Positions 46,901-64,000 of a stretch of DNA of 64,000 bases are shown in pieces. Under the pieces are notes generated by a model. The model worked only from the letters and a program-made list of their open reading frames with translations, was not told the DNA's origin and made no database searches. The position numbers and the translations under genes are program-made. Origin of the DNA: Cercospora beticola (taxonomy: Eukaryota; Ascomycota; Dothideomycetes; Mycosphaerellales; Mycosphaerellaceae); the NCBI RefSeq assembly GCF_033473495.1, contig NC_088939.1, positions 5,113,382 through 5,177,381 on the forward strand. The letters are read 5' to 3'. Position 1 is the first letter of the stretch; each line of letters begins with the position of its first letter.

Positions 46901-47711
46901 ATGAAGATGAAAGCTGGCACAGTGATCCACTTGTGAGTGCTACGGAAAGTGCATTCGAGGCGATGGTCTTGAAGCACCTTGGTGCTGACATCGCTAATCT
47001 TGGTCATCTTTTAGCTTCGGAGTGGCCCTTCTCTTCATCGCCTCCCTCCTCCTCCTCTTCGTCGCCATCTCCGCACCAATCATCAACCACCTCGGGCTCT
47101 TGCACGTCGACCTCGGCTTCATGGGAGACAAGAACCAACCCTATCGCTTCGTTTTCGGCACATTTGGCTGGTGCTGTCTTCATTGCGGCGTACACGGAGT
47201 CGATCAATGCAGCGGACGCCACATCGGCTATGAACCAAGCCGCCAATTGGCCACGAATCAGCAGATGCCCTATGAGGACATCAGCAGCGGAACATCTGAT
47301 GCGCTGACCCGAGTCATGGTTCTCCATCCCATCGCTTGCGGTGTTTCCTTTATTGCGTTCCTCCTCAGTATTGGCGGCGGCGTCATCGGATCTCTCGCTG
47401 GCGCTCTCGCTGCGGCTTTCGCTTGGATGCTGGTTCTCATCGTCATGGCGACGGATTTTACAACTTTTGGGATTGTGAAGCATCACGTCAATGAAAATGG
47501 GTTCAATCTCGTGACTGCGTCGTTTGGTGATGCGATTTGGTTGCTTGTTGCGAGTTTTATCCTATTGTTCATGGGTATGGGGATCGTGCTGTTCACTTGT
47601 TGTGTTTCGAGGAGGGAGAAGAAGAGGAAGGAGAGGAGGGACAAGGAGATTGCGAGTACGGAGCCTGTCGGGACGAATGCTGGAAGGAAGAAGAGGTTTG
47701 TTTTCTTTTGA
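46901..47711 (+). CDS. SUR7/PalI-family four-TM membrane protein
   Basis: Plasma-membrane/eisosome or pH-sensing type protein. Exons 46901-46932 and 47015-47711 (82-nt intron, branch-like GCTAATC), 242 residues. Seen: short N-terminal tail MKMKAGTVIHFFGVALLF leading into TM1, a luminal loop with FGTFGWCCLHCG (the family's Gly/Cys signature), three further membrane helices (about 110-132, 137-157, 182-206), and a basic cytosolic tail (RREKKRKERRDKE). Known: SUR7/PalI proteins organise membrane domains or signal ambient pH. Which subgroup is uncertain. Confidence 0.82.
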
Positions 47712-48173: not shown

Positions 48174-49055
48174 CTATTCGAAAGTCATCTTGTTTTCGAC
48201 CTTGCCGATACCGCTGATCTCAACTTCGACCACGTCTCCATGCTTCAAAAAGTTGGGGGGCTTCTGGAACAGACCAACTCCTCCAGGCGTACCAGTCATG
48301 ATCAGAGAGCCAGCCTGAATTGTTTGTCCTTGACTGAGAAAACTCACAAGCGCCCTGACGCCGAACACAAGATCACCTGTGTTGGAGCTTTGCCTTGTTT
48401 CGCCGTTCACTCTCGTCTCTAGCTTGAGGTTATCAGCGGCTCCCAAAACTTCTGTGGAAACAATGCAAGGTCCCATCGGTGCGTATTTGTCATAAGACTT
48501 GCTGTATGACCACTGGGGAACAGGTCCGGCTTTCTCTGGCTCTCGCTGCCAGTCTCTGGCGGAGACATCGTTTGACGACAGGTATCCGGCAACATAGGAA
48601 AGAGCGTCGGCTTTGGACACGTTCTTCGCATCACGCCCGATGAGAATGGTGAGCTCTCCTTCATAATCGCATTGCGCTTGACCTCGTGGAGGAATCGGAA
48701 TGTCTTCGTTGGGCCCGGCAAGTGTTGTGGAAGGCTTGCAAAATATCGATGGATTTTCTGGCAGCGAACGACCTGTCTCCAGAATGTGCGTCCTGTAGTT
48801 GAGGCCGACGCATCGAATGAATGGCACTTCCTGAACACTCAATGGGCAAAGGACTTCTGCAACCTTCTCAGTGTCTGAGGTGACTGACGCTGAAAGTGCC
48901 GTATCGCCAGTGCAGATGTTCACTTTAAGACTGCCATCTCTTGCAAACTGTAGGACATCGCTGGTTCCTGTTGGAAGGATAGGTTCGCCGTACTTGACTT
49001 GTCCATCTGTGGACCTGTATCGAATCAAACGCTTCCAGTTCACCAGGCTTGGCAT
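48174..49055 (-). CDS. fumarylacetoacetate-hydrolase family protein (cluster)
   Basis: Metal-dependent C-C hydrolase, isomerase or decarboxylase of ring-cleavage products. Single exon, 293 residues from the ATG at 49055; the open frame continues upstream without ATG support. Seen: N-terminal WKRLIRYRS, then the FAH core with FIRCVGLNYRTH, the metal residues in CDYEGELTILIG, SSNDVSARDWQ and a C-terminal TGTPGGVGLF. The family acts on fumarylpyruvate, maleylpyruvate, hydroxyheptadienedioate and related acids. Next to a monooxygenase and an extradiol dioxygenase, cleavage or isomerisation of a meta-cleavage product is the natural inference. Divergent with the FAD monooxygenase, 356 bp apart, sharing the operator-like element. 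Confidence 0.9.
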   Translation of the reverse strand: MPSLVNWKRLIRYRSTDGQVKYGEPILPTGTSDVLQFARDGSLKVNICTGDTALSASVTSDTEKVAEVLCPLSVQEVPFIRCVGLNYRTHILETGRSLPENPSIFCKPSTTLAGPNEDIPIPPRGQAQCDYEGELTILIGRDAKNVSKADALSYVAGYLSSNDVSARDWQREPEKAGPVPQWSYSKSYDKYAPMGPCIVSTEVLGAADNLKLETRVNGETRQSSNTGDLVFGVRALVSFLSQGQTIQAGSLIMTGTPGGVGLFQKPPNFLKHGDVVEVEISGIGKVENKMTFE

Positions 49056-49411
49056 TTTGTTTGTGGTAGTGTGGAGGTTGTGCTGTGGCAATGGACGCGG
49101 CTCCAGTGGTGTACCCTTTGAATTGTCCAATTCTCTGCTTGTGGCAATGGAGCTGACCCTTCTCCAAACAGATCTGACATACGACCAGTAAGGTTCAGAC
49201 GACGTACGTTTATTGGACCTGTCAGAGTGGCTCCGTGGCACAGCGGGTAAAGTGGCAAGCTGAACAAAGCACGCCCACGGAACATCGCGCCCTTGACCAA
49301 AACCGCCAAGGCACGGCAGCAGCATACTCTTCGGGATTGAATAGCTAAGTAAGCGCGATTGATCAGAGTGAGTATCTCGGAGCCTTCCACTGATCACAAG
49401 TTTCCTTGGCA
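49056..49411. promoter_or_regulatory. divergent promoter FAH - FAD monooxygenase
   Basis: 356 bp. Contains the shared operator element (49244-49260, minus strand), a 12-bp direct repeat TGTGGCAATGGA (49084-49095, 49140-49151) and five GTGGC pentamers (49085, 49141, 49227, 49235, 49252). GTGGC is the reverse complement of the GCCAC core of the operator, so several weak sites may surround the strong one. Confidence 0.6.
49244..49260 (-). promoter_or_regulatory. candidate cluster operator, site 1
   Basis: Minus-strand GCTTGCCACTTTACCCG. It matches site 2 at 16 of 17 bases and the 13-bp core of site 3 at 12 of 13. Confidence 0.65.
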
Positions 49412-51239
49412 ATGTCGCGGTCAACAGGTAGATTCGAAGACCACACTGCCACTTCACAGTCACTAATTCGTTGCAGAAGTTGAGAACGTAGCAGTCCTCA
49501 TCGTCGGCGCTGGACCATCTGGTGCGACCACTGCCTTGTTACTGGCCCGCTATGGCGTCAAATCGTTGGTTATCTCTCGACATGTCGGGACGGCAAACAC
49601 TCCACGTGCTCACATCTTCAATCAACGAGCCATGGAGGTTCTACGTGATGCTGGGCTCGAGGAAACGCTCCGATCTGTAGCGACTCCTGCGAACTACATG
49701 ATGCATACAACCTGGTCTCACAGTCTTGCAGGAGAGGAGTATGGCAGAATGTACGCCTGGGGAAACCGGCCGGATCGCAAGGGCGAGTACGAGGCGGCCA
49801 GTCCTTGTGTCATGTCAGATTTACCCCAGAGTGTTCTGGAGCCGATTCTTGTGGAGAGTGCCACCCAAGCTGGAGCTGAGTTCCGCTTCTCGACGGAGTT
49901 CGTTGGGCAGGTGGAAACAGATGATGGAGTGGAAACTACCGTCAAAGAACGTCAATCAGGTCGTGAATATCGAATCCGTTCTCACTATCTGATCGGTGCT
50001 GATGGCGCTCGAAGTGCCGTTTTGGAAAGTCTAAGTATACCCGTCGATGGCCGGAGTTTGAACAATGCTTTCAATGTTCACATCAAAGCTAACCTCAACA
50101 AGTACCTCACCCACAGGCCCGGGACACTAAATTGGATTCTGAACCCAGATGCGCCCGAATGGTCGGCTGTGGGCAACTTTCGAGTAGTCCATCCTTTTGA
50201 TGAATTCGTTGTGTCGATGCATCCAGCTGCCAAAGATGGTCAGACTTTCGAACCTACCGAAGATGATATTCTGCAGCGACTGCACCAGATGATCGGAGAC
50301 TCTAACTCAAATGATCAAGTCGCTATCAAGATCCTTTCCAGCTTTCGATGGACAATCAACGATCAAGTGGCCCGTACGTGGCAGAAGGGAAACGTTATCT
50401 GCATTGGAGATGCTGTGCACCGCCATCCCCCGATCAATGGCCTGGGAAGCAATACCTGCATCAGTGATGCCATGAATATCTCGTGGAAACTGGCATATGT
50501 ACTTCATGGTAGAGCTCATGCTCGAATTCTCGACTCCATAACTATCGAACGGAAGCCTGTTGGCGACGGGGTTGTTCGTCGAGCGAACGCAGGAATGGAA
50601 GATCACCGTCGCCTTTGGGATCTCATCGGTTTGTCAGCTGAGGCTCGTGAGCAGGCCACGAAATTGATGGCGCAACCAACCCCGGAGGGCAAGAGACTTC
50701 GTCGACGGTTCCTGGAAGCACTCGAGCAGACAGACAACGAGCTGAATGCACTTGGGATTCAGATGAATCAAAGCTATACTGGTTCGCCACTGATCACAGT
50801 CGAGAGCGGGGACGCATCGCAACCCGACCTGGCTTCGATCAATCTTCTGAAGCAACAAGTGATATCTACTTTCCCTGGGCATCATCTACCACATGTGTGG
50901 ATCGCCAAAGACAGTCAGTCGAAAAGAATCTCCACTCTCGATGTGTGCGGACGTGGTGCATTTACTCTACTTACTGGCATCGGAGGCGATCCCTGGAGAA
51001 AATGGGCAGCTGACTTAGAAGCATCGCGAGAAGGGCTCATCGTCAACGTGGTGTCCATTGGCTGGCGACAGGACTACAAAGACTTATATGGCGACTGGTC
51101 ACGAGTGCGAGGGGTGGAAGACGAGGGTGCTGTGCTAGTAAGACCTGATCACTTCGTCGCTTGGCGATGTCAGTCTGCTTCTCGAGCTGGCTCGGCGACG
51201 CTGATGGAGGTGTTTGACGCTATACTTCCATGCCCATAG
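49412..51239 (+). CDS. FAD-dependent phenol-hydroxylase-type monooxygenase (cluster)
   Basis: Class A flavoprotein that adds oxygen to phenolic rings with NAD(P)H. Exons 49412-49427 (16 nt) and 49477-51239; the intron is 49 nt with branch-like CACTAATTC; 592 residues. The tiny first exon restores the complete N-terminus MSRSTEVENVAVLIVGAGPS (Rossmann GAGPSG, 16-21). Also seen: the DG motif (YLIGADGARS, Asp181-Gly182) and the GD motif (ICIGDAVHRHPP, 316-317). A C-terminal thioredoxin-like domain is present, as in phenol 2-monooxygenase, TfdB and MhpA. The likely role is ortho-hydroxylation to a catechol for the extradiol enzyme. It ends 77 bp from the convergent dioxygenase. Confidence 0.92.
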
Positions 51240-51316
51240 ATGTATAAGAAAGCAATGCTCTAAGATTAACTTCGTATCACTTGTCTACGACAGCACATGA
51301 ACTATTCATCGCAAGA

Positions 51317-52457
51317 TCAGAATTCCTCGGGCACAGGAGGTCCCCACATTGATAGTGTAGTCGGCCCACTCTGCTCATGTGCTACTGGTGTATCCTTGTT
51401 GACCAAATCTCCATCAGCATAGTGCTCCAACATGAACCCGCTGGTATCAAACCAGTAGTCGAACACCTAGACACGAATCAGCTAACGCTCCAAGGATGTG
51501 TCAAATCATCCCATCAGACGTACTTGACTTCCAAGCTTATGCCTTCCAACGCCCCAGCAGAGCTTGTAGCCCTTTGACGTAAGATAGTCGTGGCCTAACT
51601 GCTGAATGTCGATATCGTGTACCTCGAATGCTGAGTGAGAGACAGTTGGCTTCTGGCCCGGCTTCGCAGGCTTGAAATAGAAGGCATGGTGGTCCGTATA
51701 CTCCTCGTCACGATCGATATGGAAGAATGTAGTTACTGGTTCCTCACCGCGAAAGACGATGTCAGAAGGCGCCAATGCTAGATGCGTGGTGTACCAGTCG
51801 AACATGATCTGATAGGTCACTGGCGCAGTATAAGTGACGCCGTAGTGGCCCCATTTGTGTACCTGCGATTCTCAATCAGCGTACCGGTCCCGACATACGT
51901 CGTGAATTACCTACTGGTGCGGGTCCTGGCTTGAAGCGGTGAAACCTGCCTTTCCGTGGCTTCTCGTCTTCGAAATTGATCACAAGCTTCTGCAGCTTCA
52001 TCTCCTCTGTCGGTTTCTGATCCTGACCATGCACAAGGTGCACTGGAATGCCGCTCGGATCATGCAAAGTCAACATTTCCCCTCCTCCTGGCATGGCACT
52101 CATTGACTGGATTTCGGACGCGCCTGGTATACGAGAAGCTTTCTCGAGATCATCTCGGCTTTCGACCAGATATGCAGCACCACAGAACTTCGACTCGCCG
52201 GGTGTGCTTGATTTTCTGGCGAGATAGAGGAACGGATCCGGTCCATAGCCGGCGAAATATATTTCGTCACCGCCCTCGCTGCGTTGGACGACGTGAAGGC
52301 CAAAGTCCAGGAGGAATTGTTCAGCTTTGGCAAGATCTACATGCTCGTAGATGACGAAGGAAGTCTTGACCAGAGCCACTCGTGGGTCGTCCTTTGGAAT
52401 GGGCATGGCTACTTCTTCGATTTGTGGCTGCTTTGATGCCTTGCTGCTTTGGTTCAT
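51317..52457 (-). CDS. extradiol-type ring-cleavage dioxygenase, VOC fold (cluster)
   Basis: Catechol-2,3-dioxygenase-like enzyme opening a dihydroxylated ring next to the hydroxyls. Exons 52457-51915, 51862-51524, 51466-51317; 343 residues. The first donor is GTAGGT at 51914, chosen because it brings VHKWGHYGVTYT into phase. Seen: an N-terminal VOC half (HVDLAKAEQFLLDFG) and a catalytic second half with the metal triad His187 (WGHYGV), His257 (VSHSAFE) and Glu308 (FMLEHYADGD). All three ligands are present, so activity is expected; Fe(II) is the usual metal. Extradiol cleavage is far less usual in fungi than intradiol. Divergent with the P450; convergent with the FAD monooxygenase, 77 bp away. 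Confidence 0.88.
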
Positions 52458-52782
52458 TTGTATACATCGACTTAGTCCAGCTGCGGCGCACGTAATCTCA
52501 CCTGGAAATACTTCCACTCCAACACTGCAACATTCGCGGCTTGAGCATCAGTCAGCAGTGCAGACAAGCAGACTGCAGCCACTACTGGGCCGAAAGAGAT
52601 CGGCGTAGAGAGCTGGGAACAGCTTCTTGCAGCTTGCCACTTTATCCGCGCGTCGGCTGATCTCACTCAGTTGTCCGCTTCCGCGGTAAGCACGGCATCC
52701 CTCATATCACAGACTATGCAGTCCGAGTGAGTGAAGCACGGATATGTTCTAGTTTGCAAGCTGTTGCAGAAGATCACACAGC
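52458..52782. promoter_or_regulatory. divergent promoter extradiol dioxygenase - P450
   Basis: 325 bp with the operator element at 52632-52648 and a second GCCAC nearby (in GCAGCCACTACTG). No clear TATA box. Confidence 0.6.
52632..52648 (+). promoter_or_regulatory. candidate cluster operator, site 2
   Basis: GCTTGCCACTTTATCCG on the plus strand. It is identical to site 3 over the 13-bp core and to site 1 except one T/C. Confidence 0.65.
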
Positions 52783-54363
52783 ATGCCTTCGAAGCATAGC
52801 ACAAGTGTTGTTGGTGTTCAGAACAGGCCGGTAGAGCGCATCGTTGGCTATGTGCTGATATCATTCGCGCTGTACGCAATCTGGAAGGTACCTGACGTAC
52901 TGGTCATCATTTCCATGATTTCAATAGCTAAAGCTCGACAGATTGTCTACGCATATGTCTTTTCTCCTGTTAGGCATATCCCAGGACCCTTCTGGTCGCG
53001 GGTGACCAGTATACCATACCGCTTGGCCACCTTCAAAACTCGACGCAGCGCATATGCACATGATCTGGTCCAGAAATATGGAAGCATCGTGGTCATTGCT
53101 CCTGATCAAGTTCATACTAGCGATGAAATCGCGATGAAAACCATCTACGATCGCAGTTCAATCAAGACAAGCTTCTACTCCAACATGGGTTCCTGGAAGG
53201 GCGTCGTTACTACTCTTGGTAAACTGGACTATGCTTCAGCAGGACCGACGAGGACCAACTTGATCCAATGCTTCCAGAACCGTAACCTTGAAACACTTGC
53301 CGACAACATCGATAAGCACGTCTTCCAGTTCGTCGAAGTGATGAAGACCACAGCTGAGGCCGGAGAGAATGTCGATGGCGTCGTCTGGTTCAGGCTGCTT
53401 GCATTGGATATTGTCACAGATGTACTATGGGGAGAAGATACTGATCTCTTGGGTCACGCTGGAAGCGACACGCCAGAGCTTTTGAAACGCTTCTTCGCAT
53501 TCAGTCAATACAACGCCCTCAAAAGCTTTATACCGGTTGTCGAGCTCTTGGCCAAATATGTTGGACCGCCCAAGTTGTCAAAACTTCGACGAGAATGCCG
53601 CGATATGGATGTCACAGCTCGGCAAGCATTGACGCGATGGCATGAGAAGACATCAAAGACACACGACCGCGACGTCCTATCGATGTTGCTCAACTCGCAA
53701 ACTTTGGACGATCCAGAGAATCGCATCAAACCTGAAGACCTCCCGGCGTACATGGTGGAGATGATGGCAGCAGGATCTTCGACCACCTCCCATACAGCAG
53801 CATTTGCGTGCTGGGCTCTTGCAAATCATCCCGAGGCGCAAGAAAAACTGCGCAAAGAGCTGTTCAAAACGCTGCCAGATGCTACGCACTTTGACATGAA
53901 AGACTCTCAGAAGTGCGAATATCTTGATGCTGTGATCCATGAGACTATGCGACTGTGGCCAATGATCCCAGGACCACTCGAGCGGTATCTTGGCAAGGCA
54001 ATTACCGTTGATGGTTTGACAGTGCCACCAGGCGTAGTTGCATCAACATCCGCACTTACTTCTGGGCGAAACGCTGAAGTCTTTCCAGAGCCCGAGAAGT
54101 GGCTGCCCGAGCGATGGCTCAACGCGACAGACAGGATGAAATTGAATTGGACGCCGTTTGGATATGGCTCTCGAATCTGTCCTGGCAGCAACCTGGCAAT
54201 GACCGAACTGAAATATATGCTTAGTGCAACGTTCCGTAACATGCGGGCGGTGCAGCCGGTTGGAGTGAAATGGGAACCGATCGAACTCGCTGATGTCTTT
54301 GCTGCTGGCACGAAGACTGGGCACTGCTGGTTGCGTTTCGAAGTAGATGCGGAGCAACCGTGA
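52783..54363 (+). CDS. cytochrome P450 (cluster)
   Basis: Microsomal monooxygenase. Single exon without introns, 526 residues. Seen: an N-terminal membrane anchor (about 20-48), PGPFWSRVTSIPYRL proline-rich hinge, I-helix AGSSTTSHT (about 330-338), ExxR Glu387-Arg390 (ETMR), PERW (442-445), and the heme loop FGYGSRICPG with Cys466. The I-helix carries Ser/Thr in place of the usual acidic residue before the oxygen-binding threonine. The absence of introns contrasts with most genes here. Known: fungal P450s of this general type oxidise aromatic or terpenoid substrates. Divergent with the dioxygenase, convergent with the regulator gene (50 bp). Confidence 0.93.
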   Translation: MPSKHSTSVVGVQNRPVERIVGYVLISFALYAIWKVPDVLVIISMISIAKARQIVYAYVFSPVRHIPGPFWSRVTSIPYRLATFKTRRSAYAHDLVQKYGSIVVIAPDQVHTSDEIAMKTIYDRSSIKTSFYSNMGSWKGVVTTLGKLDYASAGPTRTNLIQCFQNRNLETLADNIDKHVFQFVEVMKTTAEAGENVDGVVWFRLLALDIVTDVLWGEDTDLLGHAGSDTPELLKRFFAFSQYNALKSFIPVVELLAKYVGPPKLSKLRRECRDMDVTARQALTRWHEKTSKTHDRDVLSMLLNSQTLDDPENRIKPEDLPAYMVEMMAAGSSTTSHTAAFACWALANHPEAQEKLRKELFKTLPDATHFDMKDSQKCEYLDAVIHETMRLWPMIPGPLERYLGKAITVDGLTVPPGVVASTSALTSGRNAEVFPEPEKWLPERWLNATDRMKLNWTPFGYGSRICPGSNLAMTELKYMLSATFRNMRAVQPVGVKWEPIELADVFAAGTKTGHCWLRFEVDAEQP

Positions 54364-54413
54364 GCTATTAAATGCACGGCAGACCATGTAGCGTAGCTTG
54401 AAAATACGCACCT

Positions 54414-56843
54414 TCATTGTTCCTGTGTATTTAAAGCAAACGGGTTGTCTGCTAGTGCTCTGACCATTTTTGCGAACGAGGACTGCTGTCCCCAAGACGA
54501 TGTTATCTTAGGGTACAGGTCCTCGAATTGATTCATTAGCACCTCAGTATTGTCCCGGCGCAAGAGGAAATCACCCGCTGAGCCGTCATTCTGGGCGCAG
54601 AAGCTCTGATCTTTCTGAGCCTCAGTACCAGCAACAAGCCACACAAGTGCTGCAGTGTGATGGAGAGCGATTAATGCTAAGATGTTGTACTTTGCCTGAG
54701 TTTTTTCTGATCTCGAAGTTTCAGTGTCGAGCATCTGCCATATTATTCGAGCATGATGTATCGCTTCGCGGGCCTCGGGCGTAAAGGTCCAGGCGGTGAT
54801 GTCTTCTGCCACAGCTGTATCGCTCGCACTAGGTTCATGCAACCGATATGCAGTCTGTTGTATGGAATTCAGAGGCGCACAGAGCCGAAGAAAGCTGAGC
54901 TCGTAGAGGATTAGTGCACTCAGATATATAGAACGATTCTCGGGCAAGGAATGCGACAATTGGCAGTGCGTCAAAGCGGCCTTCCACTTGTCCAACGCTT
55001 TAATCACGCGAAGATAGTCATTTTGCAGGCTACGCATTCGTCTTCCAGTGCAGTCCAGATGGTCCGGCGCTGACTTCAGACCCGATTCAGCTGCTGTTAA
55101 AACTGGCCGAGCTGTCTGTATCAATCGTTTGAATATGTCAGGATCATGGGAGAATCGCCACACTTCGTGTTGGAGTCCGAAGAGAAGCAATTCTACGTCG
55201 ACGGGCTTGAGAGCTGGTAGAACCTCGTCTTCGTCAAGTGCAATCCGCACGAGGTCCGAGAAGAGCATCTCGGTACGCTGCTCCGCTACAGATTCACTGC
55301 CAGAGATGGCATGGAATACCTCCCGCGCGTGGTTCGGACTTGGCAACGGCAGATTGATTTCCTCGTACGAAATGAGTGGTTTCTTGTTGAACAAAACGCT
55401 CATGAAAGTTTCTGCTCGCATTATGCCAAAGGCTAGCATCTTGCGACCTTGCAGCATGGAGTTATCGATGGGGCGAAAGACATCATGCTGATGACGATGG
55501 AAGAGAGTGGCAGGCTTCAAAGCGAACAATCGCATCCGCTGAGCGTGATCACTAAGCGTGGCACCCAGTCGCTGCGCCGCAGAGAAGGCTCCGTCCTGCT
55601 CAAAGTACAAAGCTGCGACTTGAGTCAGAAGCATTGATCTACCTATGTCCAAGGCTTCAGACTCGGTGGTCTGATCTCGTAAGCGCTCCGAACGTAGCAG
55701 CACTTCCCGAATCATTCCATGTAGAATGGAACCATATCTTGCCGCGGCGTTGGTGCCAGAGTACAGTGCACCAATCGAAGTCAAAGTCAAGTAGAGCAGG
55801 GGGTGAAGGACATCCCGGCTAGTGTCCCTGCTAGGCACAAACGGCCACAAGGGATGAAAGTGATCGAAGTACTGTTCTACTAAGCCATCTAAGAGATGAG
55901 GCTTCGGTGATCTGGGAGACTGACCTCCACGAGTAGAGATGAAGCTCGTCAGGCGTTTTGAAAAGTCTTCCCACTTGGCAGACATCGCAGTGAAATGAGC
56001 CGTTGTGGCATCTTCGACCATTGTACCCAATACGGTACGCAACGAAGGAGTTGAGACTGCAGAGTTTCGAAGCGATACGCCATCGCCGGGCAGAAGGCTA
56101 CCCAACGAGTCGGCGGCCTGAGGCAATGGCGCTTCGTGAATGGAGACAGGCAAAGCGTGCGAATCATTCTCCTGGAAATCGTGGTTCGTCTGCTCAGGTT
56201 CAAGAGCCAAGTCTGGGAGTGGATATACGAGATCGTCCTGCGCGAAGCCTCGCTGCAAGTAGAAGTCTTCATGTGTCCACTGCCAGCCCGTTGAGAAGCC
56301 CCAGAAGGCAGGATCCGTGTGGTCCACCATGTTGTCGCTTGGCAACGACATCAAAGTTTGAGCGACATCAACGTCTCGCATTGCATCTACGTCCGATGCA
56401 TCAGTGATCGAGAGGGCCGAGTCACCTGTTGGAATCCACGGCTCATCGCTTGTCGTTGTTGTGGACGCAACGGTGTCCAATATAGAAGAGTCTACTGTTT
56501 CCCGCTGACTAACGCGTTTGGGAGCAGAATGGTAGACACAGTCGCGAGCAGCCTTGGAGCAAGCCGAGCACGGCTGCCCGCCATCGCAGCGAACGCGCCG
56601 TCTCTGACATGCCTCGCACGCCGTGTGACATCTTCTACGCTCAGTTTGCGGACGCGACGATGATGGCGAAGCGTTCAATCTATCCTCATGAATTCGAAGA
56701 TGCCTTGAGAGCAGATCGCTCCTCCGGAAGGTGATGTTGCATTCCGAGCATCGGTGTCCAGCTGAGATGCTGTGGTTCCGCTGGTGCCGCATCAGAGTGC
56801 CCTTGGAGGAGTAAACTTTGCCACATTGTCCGCAGGTGTGCAT
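54414..56843 (-). CDS. C2H2 + Zn2Cys6 transcription factor (cluster regulator)
   Basis: Likely pathway-specific regulator. Start placed at the ATG 56843 (context CATCACCATG); another ATG at 56891 would add 16 residues and the open frame upstream begins with GTG. From 56843: 809 residues, single exon. Seen: two classical C2H2 fingers right at the N-terminus (CGQCGKVYSSKGTLMRHQRNH; CSECNITFRRSDLLSRHLRIH), then a Zn2Cys6 cluster (CEACQRRRVRCDGGQPCSAC then C), an acidic linker and a fungal_trans middle domain (YFDHFHPLWPFV). Dual C2H2/Zn2Cys6 factors are a known fungal class. It sits inside the cluster and its own promoter carries the shared element, which suggests autoregulation. Confidence 0.92.
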   Translation of the reverse strand: MHTCGQCGKVYSSKGTLMRHQRNHSISAGHRCSECNITFRRSDLLSRHLRIHEDRLNASPSSSRPQTERRRCHTACEACQRRRVRCDGGQPCSACSKAARDCVYHSAPKRVSQRETVDSSILDTVASTTTTSDEPWIPTGDSALSITDASDVDAMRDVDVAQTLMSLPSDNMVDHTDPAFWGFSTGWQWTHEDFYLQRGFAQDDLVYPLPDLALEPEQTNHDFQENDSHALPVSIHEAPLPQAADSLGSLLPGDGVSLRNSAVSTPSLRTVLGTMVEDATTAHFTAMSAKWEDFSKRLTSFISTRGGQSPRSPKPHLLDGLVEQYFDHFHPLWPFVPSRDTSRDVLHPLLYLTLTSIGALYSGTNAAARYGSILHGMIREVLLRSERLRDQTTESEALDIGRSMLLTQVAALYFEQDGAFSAAQRLGATLSDHAQRMRLFALKPATLFHRHQHDVFRPIDNSMLQGRKMLAFGIMRAETFMSVLFNKKPLISYEEINLPLPSPNHAREVFHAISGSESVAEQRTEMLFSDLVRIALDEDEVLPALKPVDVELLLFGLQHEVWRFSHDPDIFKRLIQTARPVLTAAESGLKSAPDHLDCTGRRMRSLQNDYLRVIKALDKWKAALTHCQLSHSLPENRSIYLSALILYELSFLRLCAPLNSIQQTAYRLHEPSASDTAVAEDITAWTFTPEAREAIHHARIIWQMLDTETSRSEKTQAKYNILALIALHHTAALVWLVAGTEAQKDQSFCAQNDGSAGDFLLRRDNTEVLMNQFEDLYPKITSSWGQQSSFAKMVRALADNPFALNTQEQ

Positions 56844-57133
56844 GGTGATGCAAGAAGCTTCGTGGAGTGAGGGCGCTTCTGGCCCGCGCATATATTGAGA
56901 GCTGCTGCTCAGAGTGCGGGTTGATCGTCGCCTTGGGGCGCCCAAAACATGGAGGAGAGTGCGGAGAAGAGGTGGAGAAGGTTTGGCCACACTATCCAGG
57001 GTCCTCCCAGGGTCGGGAAAGCCACTTTATCCGTACAGTGGCTCGTAACGCTGGACGTATTATGGTGTAGGCAAGATCCAGCAGCATGCCATGTAGCAAG
57101 CTCAATCCTGGTTAGCACAGCAAATCGTTCACG
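56844..57133. promoter_or_regulatory. divergent promoter regulator - PRISE reductase
   Basis: 290 bp with the operator core at 57021-57033. Here the core is part of an inverted repeat, GCCAC-N12-GTGGC (57021-57042), which could bind a dimer. Confidence 0.6.
57021..57033 (+). promoter_or_regulatory. candidate cluster operator, site 3
   Basis: GCCACTTTATCCG, identical to the 13-bp core of site 2, in the promoter shared by the regulator and the reductase. Confidence 0.65.
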
Positions 57134-58552
57134 ATGGGCAAAAGTGCACTGATTACGGGCGCCAATGGCATCAGCGGAGGAGCCATACTGGAATACCTGG
57201 TCAAGAATACAACTGCCGATGAATGGACTTCGATCATAGCCACGTCGAGAAGTCCGTTCAAAACGACCGTTGAAGACCCGAGGATCAAGTTCGTGCCTTT
57301 GGACTTTTCGAAGAGCTCAGATGCTTTGGCGACTGAGATGAAGGATGCGTGCGCGCATGTCACACACGCGTATTTCTGCTCCTATGTCCACAAGGACGAT
57401 TTCTCAGAGCTCAACAGCGCCAACGAGGCTTTGTTTGAGAATTTCGTCGACGCTCTTGAGCAGGTAGCGCCCAAGCTCGAGAATATCACCCTCCAGACCG
57501 GTGGCAAACACTACTATGTGCATTTGATGCCAGTGCCCTCGCCGGCGCGAGAGGAAGAGCCTCGTCTTGAGGGACCGATTCCGAATTTCTACTTTCCTCA
57601 GGAGGACAAATTGTTCGCCGCTCAGAAAGGGAAGAACTGGTCGTGGTACGTGATCGTGATCGAATTCTGCCGCGAATGTGCGCTCCAGCTTCTCGATCGT
57701 CGAGTGGTCGTCGAAATGGAAGCGTAGCGGCACCTTGAGGTGGAGATCAGACTGTGAGGAGCAGCTGCTAATCGTGTCAGGAATGTCATTCGACCCGAAG
57801 CAATCATTGGCGCCACATCGAAACCAAATGGCATGAACGAAGCGCTGACTATTGCCATGTATTTCTTGACGTGCCGGGAGCTGGGCACTGAAGCGCCAAT
57901 GCCAACAAATCAGCGTTACTGGGTGCGTATCCATGTCATGACTTTGGCATTTTGCAGCAGTAACTGACATCGACTTCGTTCTTGCAGGAGGGCACAGACG
58001 ATCTGTCGTACGCGCCGCTGATCGCTGACCTGACCATTTACGCATCCACTCACGCGAACTGCGCGAATCAAGCCTTCAACGTCACGAATGGGGACTACTT
58101 CTCATGGAAGTACTTGTGGCCAAGGCTTGCGGAGTACTTCAATGCTCAAGCGACACCGGATCAGAAGTTTTCGAAGCCGTACCCGAAGGAAGGCGATCTT
58201 CAGCTCGAGCTGAGCCTGCTTGAATGGTCCCAAGACAAGCGACAAGTGTGGGAGAAGCTCTGCGAGAAGCAGAATCTTCCATCGGCCAAGAGCACGTTCG
58301 ACTTCGGCACCTGGGTGAGTGTAGTCGTTGAGAGACGTCTTCGCCTTGCGAAAATTCCGTCGCGTCCATCCTCGTCCTTCCACTGACTCTCCCTGATAGG
58401 CCTTCCAAGACTGGGTGTTCCAAAGGACGTGGAGCGCCACGTTAAGCATGAGCAAAGCACGCCAGTTCGGCTGGAATGGCTACATTGACTCGTATCAAGC
58501 CTTCATTGAGACTTTTGAGACCTTCAAGAGGAATGGTCTCATACCGGCGTAG
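57134..58552 (+). CDS. PRISE-family SDR (progesterone 5beta-reductase/iridoid-synthase-like) (cluster)
   Basis: NADPH-dependent reductase of enones. Exons 57134-57645, 57781-57922, 57988-58314, 58400-58552; introns of 135, 65 and 85 nt; 377 residues. Seen: Rossmann MGKSALITGANGISGGAILE, ATSRSP after strand 2 (NADP type), the PRISE signature LQTGGKHYYVHL carrying the conserved Lys, IRPEAIIGA, NGDYFSWKYLWP and C-terminal FQDWVFQRTWSATLSMSKAR. In plant members the Lys/Tyr pair reduces 1,4-enones; here a ring-cleavage product or an unsaturated side chain would be a plausible substrate (inference). It is the last gene before the degraded subtelomere. Confidence 0.9.
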
Positions 58553-58984
58553 GTAGAAGAAGGATGGCGGCTGCTCTTTTGTGAATGTATAGACGTGTCT
58601 TCCTCCTCGTGCGCATAGGGTCCCAGGTTCAACGTAGAAGAGAATGTTTAGTGCGTGTCGTACGCACAGCTTCTGCCTCTGCTCCGTCTCTTGTTACTCT
58701 CGCTGCTTCGTCTCGAAGTACTCCGGGGTCTGCCGCGGTATGTTGGCATCGTGTCGTCGCTGTAGGTAGATACTGTCTCGCATCGCGTTGGCCGGGCGCG
58801 TCGTCGCATCGTCGCGTCGTTACGTCGTCGCAAAAATGTGTCGGTGGGCATTAGCTTTGCCTCTGCTAGCAATCGTATTCGGACCGTGTCTTTGTCGCTA
58901 CGTGTCGGTTCCGTACAGATAGTTGCGGCCGGCAAGGTTCGCTCGTCGCGTCGTAGACGACGAATCGTAACGCGTTAATCTGTT
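58553..58984. other. CpG-rich spacer before the AT-rich subtelomere
   Basis: About 430 bp with very frequent TCG/CGT words (for example around 58780-58830) and normal CA/TG content. No gene recognised; a 95-codon minus-strand ORF (58648-58935) is Arg/Ser/Thr-rich and unconvincing. Composition flips to AT-rich within a few tens of bases near 58,990. Confidence 0.5.
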
Positions 58985-58999
58985 CTCGCGTTCTTATAT

Positions 59000-61135
59000 T
59001 ATTTTAAAACTAGTAGTAGCTAGCAAATATTAATTAAATATAAGCTTAGTCTACTATAAAACTTAGTATTTCTATTTACTAATAAATAAAATCTATTAGA
59101 AAGTATAGTCTAGCTAGATATTCTAATAGATATTTTAGAGATTAGAATTAGATAATATAGGTTATATAATATTAGATTATATAGATAGATAGATAATTCT
59201 TATATACTAGTCTACTTCTTTTAACTAGAATAAGTAGTATATTCTATAGGTTTTAGTTAAAAGAAAAGTCTTCGAAAAACTCTTATATATTCTTTTATTT
59301 ATAGTCTATATAGCTACTTCTTTCGCTTCTATTTTCCTTCGAATAATACTAGATATCTAGTAAGTTCTTTTCTTATTAGATTCTATTCTTTTTTTTCTTT
59401 TTTTTTTCTTTTTCTATATTTCTTCTCTTATAAGTAAGAATTAGTTTAGAACTTCTTTTTAAATAAGCTACTTTACTATTATATATAGCTTTCTTTTTAT
59501 ATTAGCTAGATTCTTCTAGTTTATAAATACTTCTATCTAGAATAGTAAGTATTTTCTTTTATTCTATTTTAGATAGAATATATATATATATTTTAGTATT
59601 TTATATCTCTATTTATATTTATAGTCTAGTATAAAACCTAGAACTCTTCTTTTAGTAAAATATTACTTTATTCTAATATATTCTATTCTTAAAAGTATAA
59701 CTATTATACTTTCTAGTCTAGTAAGTTCTTTATATAGAGTTAGTTTAATAATAAAGAAAGTAGTAGTTTTCTATACTAGTAGTTATTTCTTTTCTACTAT
59801 TACTTTTCTTTTCTTTTTATTTCTTTTCTATTTTCTATTCTACTAGTATTTAGTCTACTATATTTTATAGTCTAAGTATATTTATATTATTATTTCTTAG
59901 CTTTATACTATTTAGAAGATTTTCTTCTATTTAGTTTAAGTTAGTAGTATAAGTTACTTAGCTCTCTTTTCTATTTATACTTATTTTTTAATTTCTTTAT
60001 ATCTATTTTTAATATACTAGTATATAGATTAGATATCTTACTTTTTAGATACTTATCTAGCTAGGTTCTAAATATATAAATAGAAAGAAATAATATTTAC
60101 TTCTTTTTCTAGAATAGCTATTATAACTAACTTATATACTTCTATAATATTCTTTAAAGTTTCTTTCTAGATCTTCTTAATAGATTTAATAAAGTTTCTA
60201 TAGTAGCTTTATATACTCTCTAGATTAGACTAGACTTAGTAGCTAAAAGTAATAGCTAGTTTTACTACTACTATATAGAAATACTTTACTTTTTAGAAAA
60301 ATACTTTCTATATAGACTTATATAGTCTCTAAAGTAATTATATTTAGTAGGCTTTCTTTTCTACTACTTATTTAATATATAGGCTCTATTTAAGTTTAGT
60401 ATCTACTTATACTTTAAGAAGTTTAAGTAATAGTAGTAGTTCTCTATTAAATCTCTAGATTTAGACTATAGCTTTAAAGTTATATTTTCTACTTCTAGTA
60501 AAGTAGATTAGCTAATATTTCTATAGTATAAATTCTACTCTATATCTTTTTATCTATTTTTTATATTTCTAGTAGACTTTCTTAAGTTACTTATAGTTAT
60601 TCTCTATTAATATACTATATATAAGGATATTAGAGTTATCTATAAACTCTATTACTAAAGTAGTCTCTTTATATAGTATTAGAAATAGAATAGAAGTAAA
60701 GAAAAGAAAGAGAATTAGAAATAGAATAGAGCTTTAAAAGATTCTTATATTTTAGAGCTTTAGTTAGTCTATAAATTCTCTAAGCTTTAAATAGATAGTT
60801 CTATCTTAGAGAAATAACTAAATAAAGCTAATAGTATAGTCTAGAAAGCCTTTTATTCTAATATTATAAAGTAGCTTCTAGTAGAAAACTTTATTAAATA
60901 CTTTTAAAATATTAAAGTAGAGTATAGATACTATAGCTTCTAGCTTAGTTTTCTAGATAGTTTTTACTTATTTAGTAATAAGGTCTAATACTAAAATAGT
61001 AGATCTACTAGGCCTAGTATCTATTTATTTTTCTAGAAAAAGCTTTCTTTTTTTTAGTTTTCTTAAATATTCTTTTAGTAACTATAACTTCTAGAACTTT
61101 TACTATTATATTAAATAGAAGCTCGGATAATAAAT
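59000..61135 (-). mobile_element. RIP-degraded Tad1-like LINE, reverse transcriptase part (5'-truncated)
   Basis: On the minus strand, allowing for C-to-T/G-to-A change, a continuous non-LTR reverse-transcriptase frame can be read from about 61,130 down to 60,480. In order: a LLNTIGKVLE-like block (reads LLFNIIVKVLE), a GRST..ALDL-like block near 61,000, the PQGSPLSPILFLF motif near 60,741-60,690 (reads F*SSILFLILFLF), the catalytic FVDD at about 60,637-60,650 (reads FIDN), and KYELIHFTR near 60,500 (reads KY*LIYFTR). Many in-frame stops from RIP make it dead. There is no sign of indels across the RT core. Downstream (59,000-60,450) should be the RNase H and 3' region, not resolved by eye. 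The 5' end stops inside the RT, typical of LINE truncation. Confidence 0.8.
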
Positions 61136-61139
61136 TAAC

Positions 61140-63794
61140 GAAAATAGAATATAAGTATACTCTAGTAGATAATAATAATAATAGTAGAAGGCCTCGAGGC
61201 CTTCTAATATATAATAATACTCTCCGACTAATACTATAATATTATAAATAGAAAAGAAAGTCTAGAAGAAAGAAGTTATATCTCTAACTTCTAGATAGTC
61301 TAAATCTACTTATAACTACTTCTCTCTAGTTTTCTAAACTAAAAAACTAATACTAATACTAATAATCTAAAAATAATAATCTAAAAGAACTTAAAGATAT
61401 TTATAGAATAGATCTAGAACTACTTTAACTTCTAGTCGACTCTATTTCTTTTTCTAACTTTTCTTTTTCTTTAGTAGGTCTAGTAGACTTTTCTCTACTA
61501 TACTCTTTACTAAGTAGAGTCCTAGACTCTATAAATAATCTAGAAAACTCTCTAGAGCTATCTAATATCTACTACTACTACTCCGAAAATATAGGCCTAA
61601 ATAGCCTAATTTAGATATATAATACTAAAGCTATAGCTTTAAGTATTTATAACTATTTTAGTAAAAATAGAAAACTAAAATAAAAGAGAAATAGTAAAGA
61701 AGATAAGCTATAAAGAGCTCCGATAGATACTCGAAGTATAGTAATTTAAAGCTATATAAAAACTTCTAAATAGAAATTTTAAAGTTATTCTTTATAGAAA
61801 GAAAAAGAAAAGCTAGTTAGAAAAGAACTAATTATAGCTTAAAGCTATATACTTAGAAGCCTAAGTAGCTTTACTAAGTATATAGATAATTATATATAGT
61901 ATTAGAACTTCCTAGAAGCTAGAGAATACTAATAGCTAGATCTAGCTAGACTAGAATAACTTTATCTAGTTTCTAGAAAAACTTAAAATTAGAAAAGCTT
62001 TCTAGCTTAAGATCTAGAAAATAAAAGAAGAAACTAACTTCTTATTAGTTATAATAGTAGTATAAGATAGATAAACTATAAAGAAAATATATAAGAAAAG
62101 TATAACTATTAGAATAATATAGTATATTATAGAACTATACTATTTATAATAGAGAATAGTATAGTACTTTAAATATAATAGCTTTAAGTATATTACTATC
62201 TACTATAGAGCTATAGAAGATATCTATAGAAAGTATATAGGAAAATATAGAGTAAATAACTATAAAAAAAAGAAAGTTAAATACTATAACTATAGAGAAG
62301 ATTATAAAGTATACTTCTTTAAATATAGTTATAAAGTAGCTATAAAAGCTAAAGCTAGAGCTTTCTTAGAATAGTTTAAGAAGTAATAGAAAATAACTCT
62401 AATTCTAATATAAAATAATAAAGCTATAGAACTTTTAATTCTTAAAAGAAAAGCTCTACTAACTAAACTAATATAAAAAGATATTAGATATAAAGATAGA
62501 CCTCTAGGTACTATAGTAGTAATAATAGCTAGTAGAAAGTAAGTAAGTAAGCTCTATTTTCTCTATATATAGAAGAAAGAGAATACTTAAAAGAAAATAG
62601 ATACTTTCTAAAAAGAAATAGATATCGATCTAATTAAACTTCTTTTCTAAGTTTTCTATAAGTAGCTAAATTCTAATAATCTACTAATATAATATTAATA
62701 GATTAAATACTACTTAAACTTTATTACTAGATAGCTAAGTATTAAATAAAGTAATAGTAATAGTACTATAAGAACTATAGCTTAATACTATAAATAGTAA
62801 AACTAAAACTAAGTAAAGATATTTTATAGTTCTTTTACTATAATAGAACTTAAAAGTAGTAATACTTATATTAGATAAGATTAGAACTAATAGCTAGAAA
62901 CTACTTTTCTATAATATAGATAACTTAGTAACTATCTAGATCTAGATATCTATAGGAAATATTTCTATTTATAACTACTATAACTTTTTAGAACTATAAA
63001 GCTATAAATAAGAAAAGACTATTACTATACTTTAAGAAGCTCTTTTATAAACTCTAAGAGATACTACTACTAGCTATATAGTAGTAGAAGACTTTAACTT
63101 CTACTATTTAAAATAGAAAGAAAATATAATTTAGACCTAATATATTATAGTAGATAAACTTATTAAAATAGCTATAGAGGCTAATTTATAGCTAGCTCTA
63201 GAACTAGAAATAATTATATAAGAAAAGTATATAGTAAGCTACTAAATACTAGACTTAGTTTTTATTAGCTTTTTTCTCTAAAACTTAATCTAAGAATATA
63301 AAGCTCTTTTAGAAGAAATATATAGCTCCGACTATATCCTTTTTAGAATAACTTTCTATATTAACTTCTAAGAGCTAATAGAAAAAAGCTAAAGAAAGTA
63401 GTAGAAAGTAGCTAACTAGACTAAAATCTAGAAACTTATAGCTAAGAATATTAGCTAACTTAGCTAACTTCTAGTCTATATAAAGAAATATCTAGATATT
63501 TTAGTAAGTAGAATATAAATCTCTATCTAAAAGATTATAGAAGAGATAGTTCTAATAGCTAGACTATTATACTATAGAAAGATAATATAGATCTAAAAGT
63601 ATAGAGATAATATAAAACTTATAAAGAAAAGAAAAAAGAAATAAAAAGATTATAAGATAGAATAGAGCTATAAATAATATCTTAAAATATTATATATAAG
63701 AAGTAGAGCTATAAGAAAAGAGTAAAATCTAGTATAAAGAAAACTAGTAAAAAAAGCTATAAAGAACTCGAAGAAGATCTAGAAGATAGCTAAA
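61140..63794 (+). mobile_element. RIP-degraded Tad1-like LINE, ORF1 and endonuclease, cut by the telomere
   Basis: On the plus strand, a gag-like ORF1 zinc-knuckle region is readable at about 62,165-62,340: CFKCNSFGHI-like and KCCNCGEDHK-like units with Cys changed to Tyr throughout (YFKYNSFKYI, KYYNYREDYK). ORF2 follows: an APE-type endonuclease signature GDFNLHH reads EDFNFYY near 63,088-63,108, and a DLVF block lies near 63,255. The frame continues through the linker that precedes the reverse transcriptase, then ends directly at the telomere repeats. The RT is therefore missing. The element's 5' end is near 61,140-61,400; the exact border is not visible. Confidence 0.75.
61186..61205. repeat. 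20-bp perfect palindrome with GC-rich core
   Basis: AGAAGGCCTCGAGGCCTTCT, a perfect inverted repeat around CTCGAG, in otherwise AT-only DNA at the junction of the two LINE remnants. It has no CA or TG, so it would survive RIP. Confidence 0.6.
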
Positions 63795-64000
63795 TTAGGG
63801 GTTAGGGTTAGGGTTAGGGTTAGGGTTAGGGTTAGGGTTAGGGTTAGGGTTAGGGTTAGGGTTAGGGTTAGGGTTAGGGTTAGGGTTAGGGTTAGGGTTA
63901 GGGTTAGGGTTAGGGTTAGGGTTAGGGTTAGGGTTAGGGTTAGGGTTAGGGTTAGGGTTAGGGTTAGGGTTAGGGTTAGGGTTAGGGTTAGGGTTAGGGT
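63795..64000 (+). repeat. telomere, (TTAGGG)n
   Basis: TTAGGG array to the end of the window, about 34 units. The first unit is TTAGGGG; the rest is a regular hexamer. The G-rich strand runs 5'->3' to the right, so this is a true right chromosome end. Confidence 0.98.

Follow-up and report, generated by a model that had tools for sequence, protein, structure and literature searches.

Six adjacent genes beside a telomere of Cercospora beticola very probably act as one functional ring-opening unit. They were found in the window, i.e., the whole stretch of 64,000 nucleotides that was analysed, which forms the end of contig C5 (genome of 36.07 Mb, 10 contigs). The genes encode a FAH-family hydrolase (FAH), a class A FAD monooxygenase (FMO), a putative VOC-type extradiol dioxygenase (VOC), a cytochrome P450, a candidate regulator and a PRISE-type reductase. 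They are not chance neighbours, because a promoter element is shared among them, four groups of the FMO, VOC and FAH trio exist in the genome, and the linkage is also found in other fungi and in bacteria. The probable explanation is an extradiol-FAH route as a whole, encoded by a co-regulated catabolic cluster that would open a polyhydroxylated aromatic ring by meta cleavage. For the more specific reading, with a trihydroxybenzene as the ring that is cleaved, the balance is about even.

Gene order and encoded families

The features of the locus were as follows.

48174..49055, minus strand: FAH-family hydrolase, 293 aa, one exon
49056..49411: divergent promoter 1, FAH/FMO, 356 bp
49412..51239, plus strand: class A FAD monooxygenase (FMO), two exons (49412-49427, 49477-51239)
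51317..52457, minus strand: putative VOC-type (type I) extradiol dioxygenase, 343 aa, three exons (52457-51915, 51862-51524, 51466-51317)
52458..52782: divergent promoter 2, VOC/P450, 325 bp
52783..54363, plus strand: cytochrome P450, 526 aa, one exon, heme motif FGYGSRICPG
54414..56843, minus strand: candidate regulator, 809 aa, two C2H2 fingers, Zn2Cys6 cluster, Fungal_trans
56844..57133: divergent promoter 3, regulator/PRISE, 290 bp
57134..58552, plus strand: PRISE-type short-chain reductase, 377 aa, four exons (57134-57645, 57781-57922, 57988-58314, 58400-58552)
58990..63795: AT-rich, RIP-saturated repeat between cluster and telomere, a boundary outside the pathway
63799..64000, plus strand: telomere, 33.7 copies of the 6-base unit

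The sequence-only reading had described six genes of strictly alternating strand, convergent gaps of 77 and 50 bp, divergent gaps of 290-356 bp, and a position next to the telomere. The gene models bear out the alternation, and the gaps were reproduced exactly (356, 77, 325, 50 and 290 bp in order). The last cluster gene stops 5.2 kb short of the (TTAGGG)n telomere at the contig end. Alternation of six strands has by itself a chance of 1 in 32, so it was not counted as evidence for a cluster. Several in-frame GT-AG combinations were possible, 36 for VOC and 648 for PRISE, and we selected the splice sites from these. The six family assignments are supported by Pfam, i.e., PF01557 for FAH, PF01494 with PF21274 for FMO, PF00903 for VOC, PF00067 for P450, zf-C2H2, Zn_clus and Fungal_trans for the regulator, and PF22917 for PRISE (E 4e-35). 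All catalytic motifs searched for were present in the cluster proteins.

FAH matched PF01557 with E 6e-67 and carries the motifs HxxE (residues 90-93), DYEGEL and NDVSARD. The FAA_hydrolase domain with the HxxE dyad and an acidic metal site places it in the FAH superfamily, and the dyad and acidic residues presumably have their usual role in FAH enzymes. The top NCBIfam model was NF053535, 2,4-didehydro-3-deoxy-L-rhamnonate hydrolase, at 175 bits, far under the cut-off of 500. The second was the HpaG C-terminal domain (147.3 bits, cut-off 276.4), and the best PDB match was the HpaG-type 1gtt (E 1.4e-52). Membership in this family, as judged from sequence, cannot alone separate a hydrolase from a decarboxylase or isomerase.

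FMO (PF01494, E 5.5e-92) shows the FAD_binding_3 domain with the GxGxxG, DG and GD motifs of class A enzymes. It had been called phenol-type at first, and this part of the description was dropped. The closest PDB entries were 2-hydroxybiphenyl 3-monooxygenase (E 1.2e-123) and 2,4-dichlorophenol 6-monooxygenase (E 1.7e-117), whereas phenol 2-monooxygenase 1pn0 gave only E 5.4e-11. On these scores the phenol-hydroxylase reading was rejected, and FMO is outside the fungal phenol-hydroxylase subfamily.

VOC scored 31.2 bits against PF00903 (cut-off 20.6). A Cercospora zeina protein, P0001, is 92% identical to it over 95%, which backs the splice choice. The putative metal ligands are H187, H257 and E308, i.e., H178, H248 and E299 in P0001, and these were invariant in 36 of 36 aligned relatives, picked by us from 120 listed. 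In the alignment, the final Glu and the GRH motif have counterparts in homoprotocatechuate dioxygenase. The conserved residues agree with the 2-His-1-Glu metal site of type I extradiol dioxygenases, as judged by the metal-binding residues of homoprotocatechuate dioxygenase. In the AlphaFold model of P0001 (pLDDT 87.9, pTM 0.87), the two-domain VOC fold was recognized, with TM (query) of 0.71-0.75 to 1mpy, 3lm4 and 1q0o. The best fold match in PDB was 3b59, titled Mn(II)-bound glyoxalase (Novosphingobium), followed by catechol 2,3-dioxygenases, DHB dioxygenase 3lm4, AphC and homoprotocatechuate 2,3-dioxygenase. The name trihydroxytoluene oxygenase was given to 2 of the 120 listed relatives (P0032 and P0068). 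On plasmids, 60 records with VOC relatives were found, all below 60% identity, and among the 25 rows listed these were named VOC family protein or unnamed.

A VOC tree of 40 rows was built from 25 of the 120 listed fungal relatives, 12 of the 80 bacterial relatives and three own copies, of which the C4 copy was represented by its first exon piece. All 12 bacterial rows were on one side of a branch. The window and C4 copies group with separate fungal subclades, and the placement of the C6 copy, which has a long branch, is unsure. The tree is not used here to argue for a direction of gene transfer.

The matches to HpaD and HpaG speak for a different route, i.e., catechol-type meta cleavage of the homoprotocatechuate kind, in which FAH would be a decarboxylase/isomerase or a hydratase. 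HpaD (TIGR02295) is the best curated dioxygenase model for VOC, and FAH has the HpaG matches given above. However, the HpaD score is 50.9 bits against a curated cut-off of 321.4, the HpaG score is likewise far under its cut-off, and FAH is slightly better on the rhamnonate hydrolase model. An HpaE-type dehydrogenase is missing from the six genes, and FMO is near to 2-hydroxybiphenyl and dichlorophenol hydroxylases. To our knowledge, an FMO of that type is not close to the enzyme forming homoprotocatechuate. The homoprotocatechuate-like route is thus quite unlikely. A 2,4-dioxo product derived from a trihydroxybenzene fits the FAH-family enzyme better than the product of a simple catechol, so the term catechol meta pathway is too general. 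The earlier idea is supported in part, for an aromatic ring-opening cluster beside the telomere with its own candidate regulator.

Promoter element and recurrence of the gene trio

A 13-bp element, GCCACTTTAYCCG, was found in one copy in each of the three divergent promoters (3/3).

49244..49256, minus strand: element copy 1, GCCACTTTACCCG, promoter 1
52636..52648, plus strand: element copy 2, GCCACTTTATCCG, promoter 2
57021..57033, plus strand: element copy 3, GCCACTTTATCCG, promoter 3

The distance of the copies to the ATG of the minus-strand gene is 178-189 bp, and that to the ATG of the plus-strand gene is 101-156 bp. Genome-wide (36 Mb), GCCACTTTAYCCG has six exact copies and the reversed pattern has one. 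None of 2000 order-2 Markov shuffles had a 13-mer shared as closely, and the same was true of 5000 random window triplets (0 of 5000). A weaker control is the longest exact k-mer common to the three promoters, which is 9, a length reached by 1 of 300 order-1 shuffles. Within the window, copies with two mismatches were found at 56820, inside the regulator gene, and at 11888. Such a shared cis element in the promoters is one of the features of a co-regulated metabolic cluster in fungi.

Two of the three exact copies outside the cluster are within open frames of 301 and 508 aa, and the third, C2:526215, borders an open frame of 127 aa; no tie to aromatic genes was established for these three. A FAH locus (C2:532640-533622) is found about 6 kb away from the copy at C2:526215.

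The FMO, VOC and FAH trio recurs at C4:126147-132436, C6:2948127-2954407 and C1:405071-409606, so that the linkage of hydroxylase, VOC extradiol enzyme and FAH exists in three other groups of this genome. Three of the four trio sites are within about 140 kb of contig ends. When 12 FAH, 17 FMO and 7 VOC loci were placed at random, 0 of 50,000 runs gave even two linked FAH genes, and four were observed. A PRISE relative is 3.5 kb from the C4 FMO. The P450 and the regulator have no close relatives in the C4, C6 and C1 groups; the P450 of the C4 stretch is only 32% identical over 76 residues to the cluster P450, and the C4 regulator differs from that of the cluster.

Near the C4 group, no element copy with two or fewer mismatches was found over 30 kb. 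The C6 and C1 groups have one copy each, at two mismatches, and that of C1 (405174) is beside the start of the FMO match. Co-regulation of the three groups through the same element was sought and not found. Because C4 has a different regulator and no element, the regulatory claim is limited to the telomeric cluster.

The sequence-only reading would have been refuted by a lack of co-occurrence of the genes in related genomes together with a lack of co-expression; as far as the searches go, co-occurrence is not lacking. Searches in other fungi covered VOC, FMO and P450, and these three are linked there. VOC and FMO relatives (120 listed each) had 29 contig sizes in common, and 10 contig sizes were common to VOC, FMO and P450 relatives among the matches listed. 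In 10 named fungal species, again among the matches listed, two or three of these proteins have locus tags that are neighbours. The core trio recurs both within the same genome and in bacteria. Within 10 kb of 80 bacterial VOC relatives, a FAH relative was found in 71, an FMO relative in 56 and both in 54, and P450, regulator and PRISE relatives in 0 of 80 each (E 1e-8).

Among the bacterial loci, 15 have the closest FAH. In these, a malonic-semialdehyde-reductase relative was found in 12 (directly after VOC in 11), an aromatic-acid MFS relative in 9, and a methylmalonate-semialdehyde-dehydrogenase relative in 6. Semialdehyde enzymes beside FAH are expected if the FAH step frees a three-carbon semialdehyde. 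A full-length close FMO was present in only 2 of the 15 (41-42%), and locus L076 adds a match of 68 residues. The remaining 65 loci have an FMO relative in 53, with only 24-30% identity, the semialdehyde reductase in none and the dehydrogenase in two.

Subtelomeres accumulate oxidoreductase genes, and the P450 and regulator lack close relatives in the other trio groups, so a loose collection of unrelated genes or mere chance neighbours might be considered. The common promoter element, the recurrence, and the linkage conserved across fungi and bacteria make this very improbable.

Proposed route and its meaning

In the favoured route, the P450 and/or PRISE may prepare a phenolic derived from plant or fungus, which is the weakest step. 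FMO, whose class is clear from its sequence, would then add a ring hydroxyl and most likely produce a trihydroxybenzene. VOC, by its fold and residues, would cleave the ring beside a hydroxyl, using a metal bound by H187, H257 and E308. Because the ring would bear a third hydroxyl, the predicted ring-opening product is a 2,4-dioxo (acylpyruvate-like) acid. As hcdABC, the dnt route and the gene neighbours in bacteria suggest, FAH would cleave this acid in two, one part being pyruvate or a pyruvate-like fragment and the other a small acid or a semialdehyde. The candidate pathway regulator is the C2H2/Zn2Cys6 protein, which may act directly or indirectly through GCCACTTTAYCCG.

The same enzymes could serve detoxification or tailoring, i.e., ring opening would make a plant phenolic harmless or modify a fungal metabolite, and the products would not enter central metabolism. 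P450s and short-chain reductases often act in tailoring, the cluster has a subtelomeric position and no final dissimilatory steps, and the accessible text of PMC8896014 gives two scenarios for extradiol enzymes of fungi, one of which is detoxification without full metabolism. However, no PKS, NRPS or terpene cyclase was found in the ten flanking ORFs scanned, a hydrolase after a dioxygenase is typical of dissimilation, and in bacteria the closest loci have semialdehyde enzymes alongside the VOC/FAH pair. This function is rather unlikely, and it overlaps with the catabolic reading, so the two are not exclusive. The domains in the ten flanking ORFs were UBE2O-type, Dor1, SUR7, metallo-beta-lactamase, DRMBL, TrkH, ferric reductase, SPT6, NOT3 and WKF. 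A secondary-metabolite cluster was rejected for lack of a backbone enzyme in these ten.

The route is familiar from bacteria, and its fungal version is not worked out in the literature examined. A literature search over titles and abstract openings, with most subscription journals outside its coverage, gave no description of the six-gene set. It is an evenly poised question whether Pezizomycotina carry a widespread, previously unrecognised VOC-based meta-cleavage pathway for trihydroxylated aromatics, missed by inventories based on PF00775, PF02900 and PF04444, with four modules in C. beticola, the telomeric one being served by a regulator and a promoter element of its own. If the cluster works as proposed, it would be a genetically compact fungal meta pathway with regulator and cis element, an inroad into how leaf-spot fungi handle plant phenolics, and a source of catalysts for polyphenol conversion. 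Whether fungi perform meta cleavage would then become testable with three enzymes produced in E. coli.

Comparison with known systems

In the portions of the sources available, the fungal meta (extradiol) pathway was called uncharacterised in 2022 (PMC8896014), and according to another paper only intradiol cleavage had been described in fungi (PMC10512348). In this latter work, 17 Aspergillus niger ring-cleavage genes, chosen through PF00775, PF02900 and PF04444, were deleted (2021 deletion; PMC10512348). PF00903, the family of the Cercospora dioxygenase, is outside that selection as described (PMC10512348). CDO3 of Ceratocystidaceae is an extradiol dioxygenase of plant-associated fungi, with expression up on caffeic acid (data not shown in that paper), but it is a class III enzyme (subunit B) similar to 4,5-DOPA dioxygenase, i.e., of a different family from the Cercospora VOC (PMC8896014, accessible text).

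The Scedosporium gentisate cluster, as far as the available text describes it, comprises MFS, P450, a ring-opening dioxygenase, monooxygenase, FAH and a Zn2Cys6 regulator (PMC8283699). The clustering of P450, monooxygenase, dioxygenase, FAH and Zn2Cys6 regulator is alike in both fungi. However, the ring-opening enzyme of Scedosporium does not belong to the VOC family; it has a three-His site and is a gentisate 1,2-dioxygenase, and PRISE is unnamed in that text (PMC8283699). By Pfam, no gentisate 1,2-dioxygenase gene is among the six, and the ring-opening enzyme matches PF00903 only. The degradative-cluster cores of Gluck-Thaler and Slot 2018 include an aromatic ring-opening dioxygenase and phenol 2-monooxygenase, but a VOC-type extradiol enzyme is unnamed among the 13 cores as excerpted (via PMC10735191).

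In the Burkholderia 2,4-dinitrotoluene route, dntB-D-G-E encode a monooxygenase, trihydroxytoluene oxygenase, bifunctional isomerase/hydrolase and CoA-dependent methylmalonate semialdehyde dehydrogenase, and the route ends in pyruvate and propionyl-CoA (PMC10602510, PMC3757077, available portions). The monooxygenase, ring-opening and hydrolase steps are alike, but dnt is described as a xenobiotic bacterial route begun by a multicomponent dioxygenase. Unlike dnt, the Cercospora cluster has no semialdehyde dehydrogenase gene; the six genes include no downstream semialdehyde enzyme, no transporter and no classical quinone reductase. We take DntD to be VOC-type and DntG to be FAH-type.

The hcdABC genes of Pseudomonas mandelii 7HK4 (7-hydroxycoumarin route) are three adjacent genes for a class A flavin hydroxylase of about 62 kDa, a type I extradiol dioxygenase and an FAA-hydrolase-family protein, and the operon as described has no downstream semialdehyde enzyme either (PMC6222606, accessible text). 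Hydroxylation to a trihydroxyphenyl acid and then extradiol opening to 2,4-dihydroxy-6-oxo-dienedioate were shown, and the HcdB product vanishes with HcdC present (PMC6222606). HcdB also cleaves plain catechols (PMC6222606), so VOC does not demand a trihydroxy ring. Because HcdA was active on only two of the substrates tested and HcdB was inactive on 1,2,4-benzenetriol (PMC6222606), this precedent fixes no substrate for the Cercospora enzymes. Unlike the Cercospora cluster, hcdABC is a one-strand bacterial operon with an established substrate, and P450, PRISE and Zn2Cys6 regulator are undescribed in the text available for it. Both systems link a class A hydroxylase, a type I extradiol dioxygenase and a FAH-family gene, and by gene families and described chemistry hcdABC appears to be the nearest characterised precedent.

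Organization of the subtelomeric cluster

The six-gene arrangement described at 48174-58552 in the sequence-only reading was borne out, with gaps of 356, 77, 325, 50, and 290 bp. The predicted products are, in order, a FAH-family hydrolase (FAH, minus strand), a flavin monooxygenase (FMO, plus), a VOC-type protein (VOC, minus), a P450 (plus), a regulator (minus), and a short-chain reductase (PRISE, plus). Splice sites were selected among 36 in-frame GT-AG options for VOC and 648 for PRISE. The VOC choice is supported because the resulting protein was 92% identical to a C. zeina protein. In protein searches, FMO was 93% identical to its C. berteroae and 87% to its C. zeina match, and P450 was 96% identical to that of C. 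kikuchii; together with the VOC match, these nearest relatives put the fungus within or close to Cercospora.

Pfam families were clear for the six proteins, with VOC at only 31.2 bits against a cut-off of 20.6, and the active-site motifs sought in the cluster enzymes were present. Judged by sequence, FMO is a class A enzyme like 2-hydroxybiphenyl and 2,4-dichlorophenol hydroxylases. The presumed metal ligands of VOC were kept in all 36 aligned fungal relatives, which we picked from 120 among the matches listed. The predicted fold of the C. zeina VOC relative (pLDDT 87.9) matched best a Novosphingobium protein titled glyoxalase, followed by a long run of extradiol dioxygenases. In sequence comparisons, FAH resembles 2,4-dioxo-acid hydrolases and HpaG about equally, i.e., NCBIfam ranked the former first (175 vs 147 bits), and the PDB search ranked HpaG first. 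The regulator carries two C2H2 fingers, a Zn2Cys6 cluster, and Fungal_trans, and the last gene was assigned by Pfam as a PRISE-type reductase.

The window forms the right-hand end of contig C5 (genome 36.07 Mb, 10 contigs), and its last bases are filled by the following feature.

63799-64000, telomere repeat

The closest long ORF ahead of the cluster encodes a SUR7/PalI-type membrane protein (46998-47708), and Dor1 and UBE2O-type genes were placed farther inward; the cluster therefore adjoins ordinary genes. Between PRISE and the telomere, the first 0.4 kb (58553-58990) has a high CpG observed/expected ratio of 1.64, 55% GC, and few CpA (13) and TpG (31). The next approximately 4.8 kb (58990-63795) is RIP-saturated, i.e., GC 21.5%, CpA 1, TpG 0, and TpA/ApT 1.73. 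The portion searched (~59180-60600) matched a dispersed genomic repeat with at least ~40 long copies at 86-91% identity, and the telomere therefore seems to sit on a dead repeat.

A common element in the divergent promoters

The element GCCACTTTAYCCG was common to all three divergent promoters, with one copy in each.

49244-49256, minus strand, copy 1, promoter 1 (FAH/FMO)
52636-52648, plus strand, copy 2, promoter 2 (VOC/P450)
57021-57033, plus strand, copy 3, promoter 3 (regulator/PRISE)

The copies stand 178-189 bp from the start codons of the minus-strand genes and 101-156 bp from those of the plus-strand genes. No further copy of GCCACTTTATCCG with up to one mismatch was found in the window, and two were found at two mismatches. 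Genome-wide, on both strands, six exact copies were counted (one for the control pattern, the element read backwards), so half of all copies fall within the 971 bp of the three promoters. Because the element was discovered by inspecting these very promoters, the appropriate test is the shuffle control rather than the genome count. When the three promoters were shuffled 2000 times (order 2), or 5000 triplets of segments were drawn at random from the window, no set had a 13-mer in common with at most one mismatch. The exact-match control was weaker, i.e., the longest common exact k-mer was 9, equalled by 1 of 300 order-1 shuffles.

Recurrence of the trio in the same genome

Three other FMO+VOC+FAH groups were found by protein searches and Pfam scans of the retrieved stretches.

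C4:126147-132436, FMO, VOC, and FAH with best-piece identities to the window genes of 61, 57, and 52%, respectively
C4:121265-122609, a PRISE relative at this locus, with a Fungal_trans gene between
C6:2948127-2954407 (stretch L049-L050), VOC 41%, FAH 35%, FMO of another type, plus a short-chain dehydrogenase
C1:405071-409606 (stretch L051:5071-9606), all on the plus strand, FAH 48%, distant FMO

The C4 group lies ~121-126 kb and the C6 group ~133 kb from contig ends, and the C1 group stands 405 kb in. As read, the C6 FAH piece has two in-frame stops, perhaps unspliced introns. The C1 VOC is unlike that of the window; it was overlooked by the whole-protein search and detected by Pfam only.

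Random placement was simulated with 12 FAH loci, at least 17 FMO (18 of 99 candidates scored), and 5 VOC loci in addition to the copies in the window and on C4, which the Pfam search had overlooked. Two FAH genes each with both partners within 10 kb arose in 0 of 50,000 runs (0 of 20,000 with 40 FMO and 20 VOC); four such FAH genes were observed. Since the copies share descent at least in part, the recurrence shows conserved linkage more than independent assembly.

Bacterial counterparts and the proposed route

From a profile scan of GTDB genomes, the best 80 of 584 relatives were kept. Among these best 80, FAH relatives were found in 71, FMO relatives in 56, and both in 54, whereas relatives of P450, regulator, and PRISE were found in 0 of 80 each at E 1e-8. 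Relatives of malonic-semialdehyde reductase were found in 12 of the 15 loci of this set with the closest FAH (10 from Pseudomonas), and in 11 they come directly after VOC; aromatic-acid MFS relatives were found in 9 of the 15 and methylmalonate-semialdehyde-dehydrogenase relatives in 6. In the remaining 65 of the best 80, the reductase relative was found in none and the dehydrogenase relative in two; FMO relatives were present in 53, with only 24-30% identity to the window FMO. Two closest-FAH loci (L063 and L064) encode an FMO that is 41-42% identical to that of the window over 591-592 residues. The Pseudomonas locus L063 (3489-12964) holds two divergent VOC-FAH sets: one has the 41% identical FMO beside the second VOC and second FAH, and the other has the malonic-semialdehyde-reductase and aromatic-acid MFS relatives.

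The chemical logic of the route combines established knowledge with inference. Substrates of FAH-type hydrolases are 1,3-dioxo compounds, and a 1,3-dioxo extradiol product requires a third ring hydroxyl in the right place. In the dnt route, the trihydroxytoluene oxygenase is presumably VOC-type and the isomerase/hydrolase FAH-type. A three-carbon semialdehyde product would fit the semialdehyde enzymes that neighbour the closest bacterial VOC-FAH pairs. PMC6222606 describes for hcdABC a class A hydroxylase that forms a 2,3,5-trihydroxyphenyl acid and a type I extradiol enzyme whose ring opening of that acid yields a 2,4-dihydroxy-6-oxo-dienedioate; this product is no longer seen when the FAA-family protein is present, and the split products were proposed there, not identified. 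PMC10602510 describes the dnt oxygenase and bifunctional isomerase/hydrolase leading to pyruvate and propionyl-CoA. From the dioxo-acid chemistry, the semialdehyde neighbours, and both precedents, the trio can be read as follows: FMO would be the ring hydroxylase of the route, VOC a predicted trihydroxyarene dioxygenase, and FAH a predicted dioxo-acid hydrolase. P450 and PRISE might, as a conjecture, act upstream, e.g., in ring or side-chain oxidation and enone or quinone reduction.

In openly licensed literature, judged from titles and abstract openings, no published description of the fungal set was found. PMC8896014 calls the fungal meta pathway uncharacterised, and the CDO3 that it describes belongs to class III (subunit B). 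According to PMC10512348, intradiol cleavage was the sole kind described in fungi until then, its 17-gene deletion used genes picked by families without PF00903, and the NahG-like monooxygenase GacA was required for gallate use; the present cluster is therefore not claimed to explain gallate use. One trihydroxytoluene oxygenase gene is listed for a Scedosporium strain in PMC5716253, so the annotation is already in print, there without a pathway. All the enzymes of the cluster fall into known families, and bacteria already provide examples of the trio.
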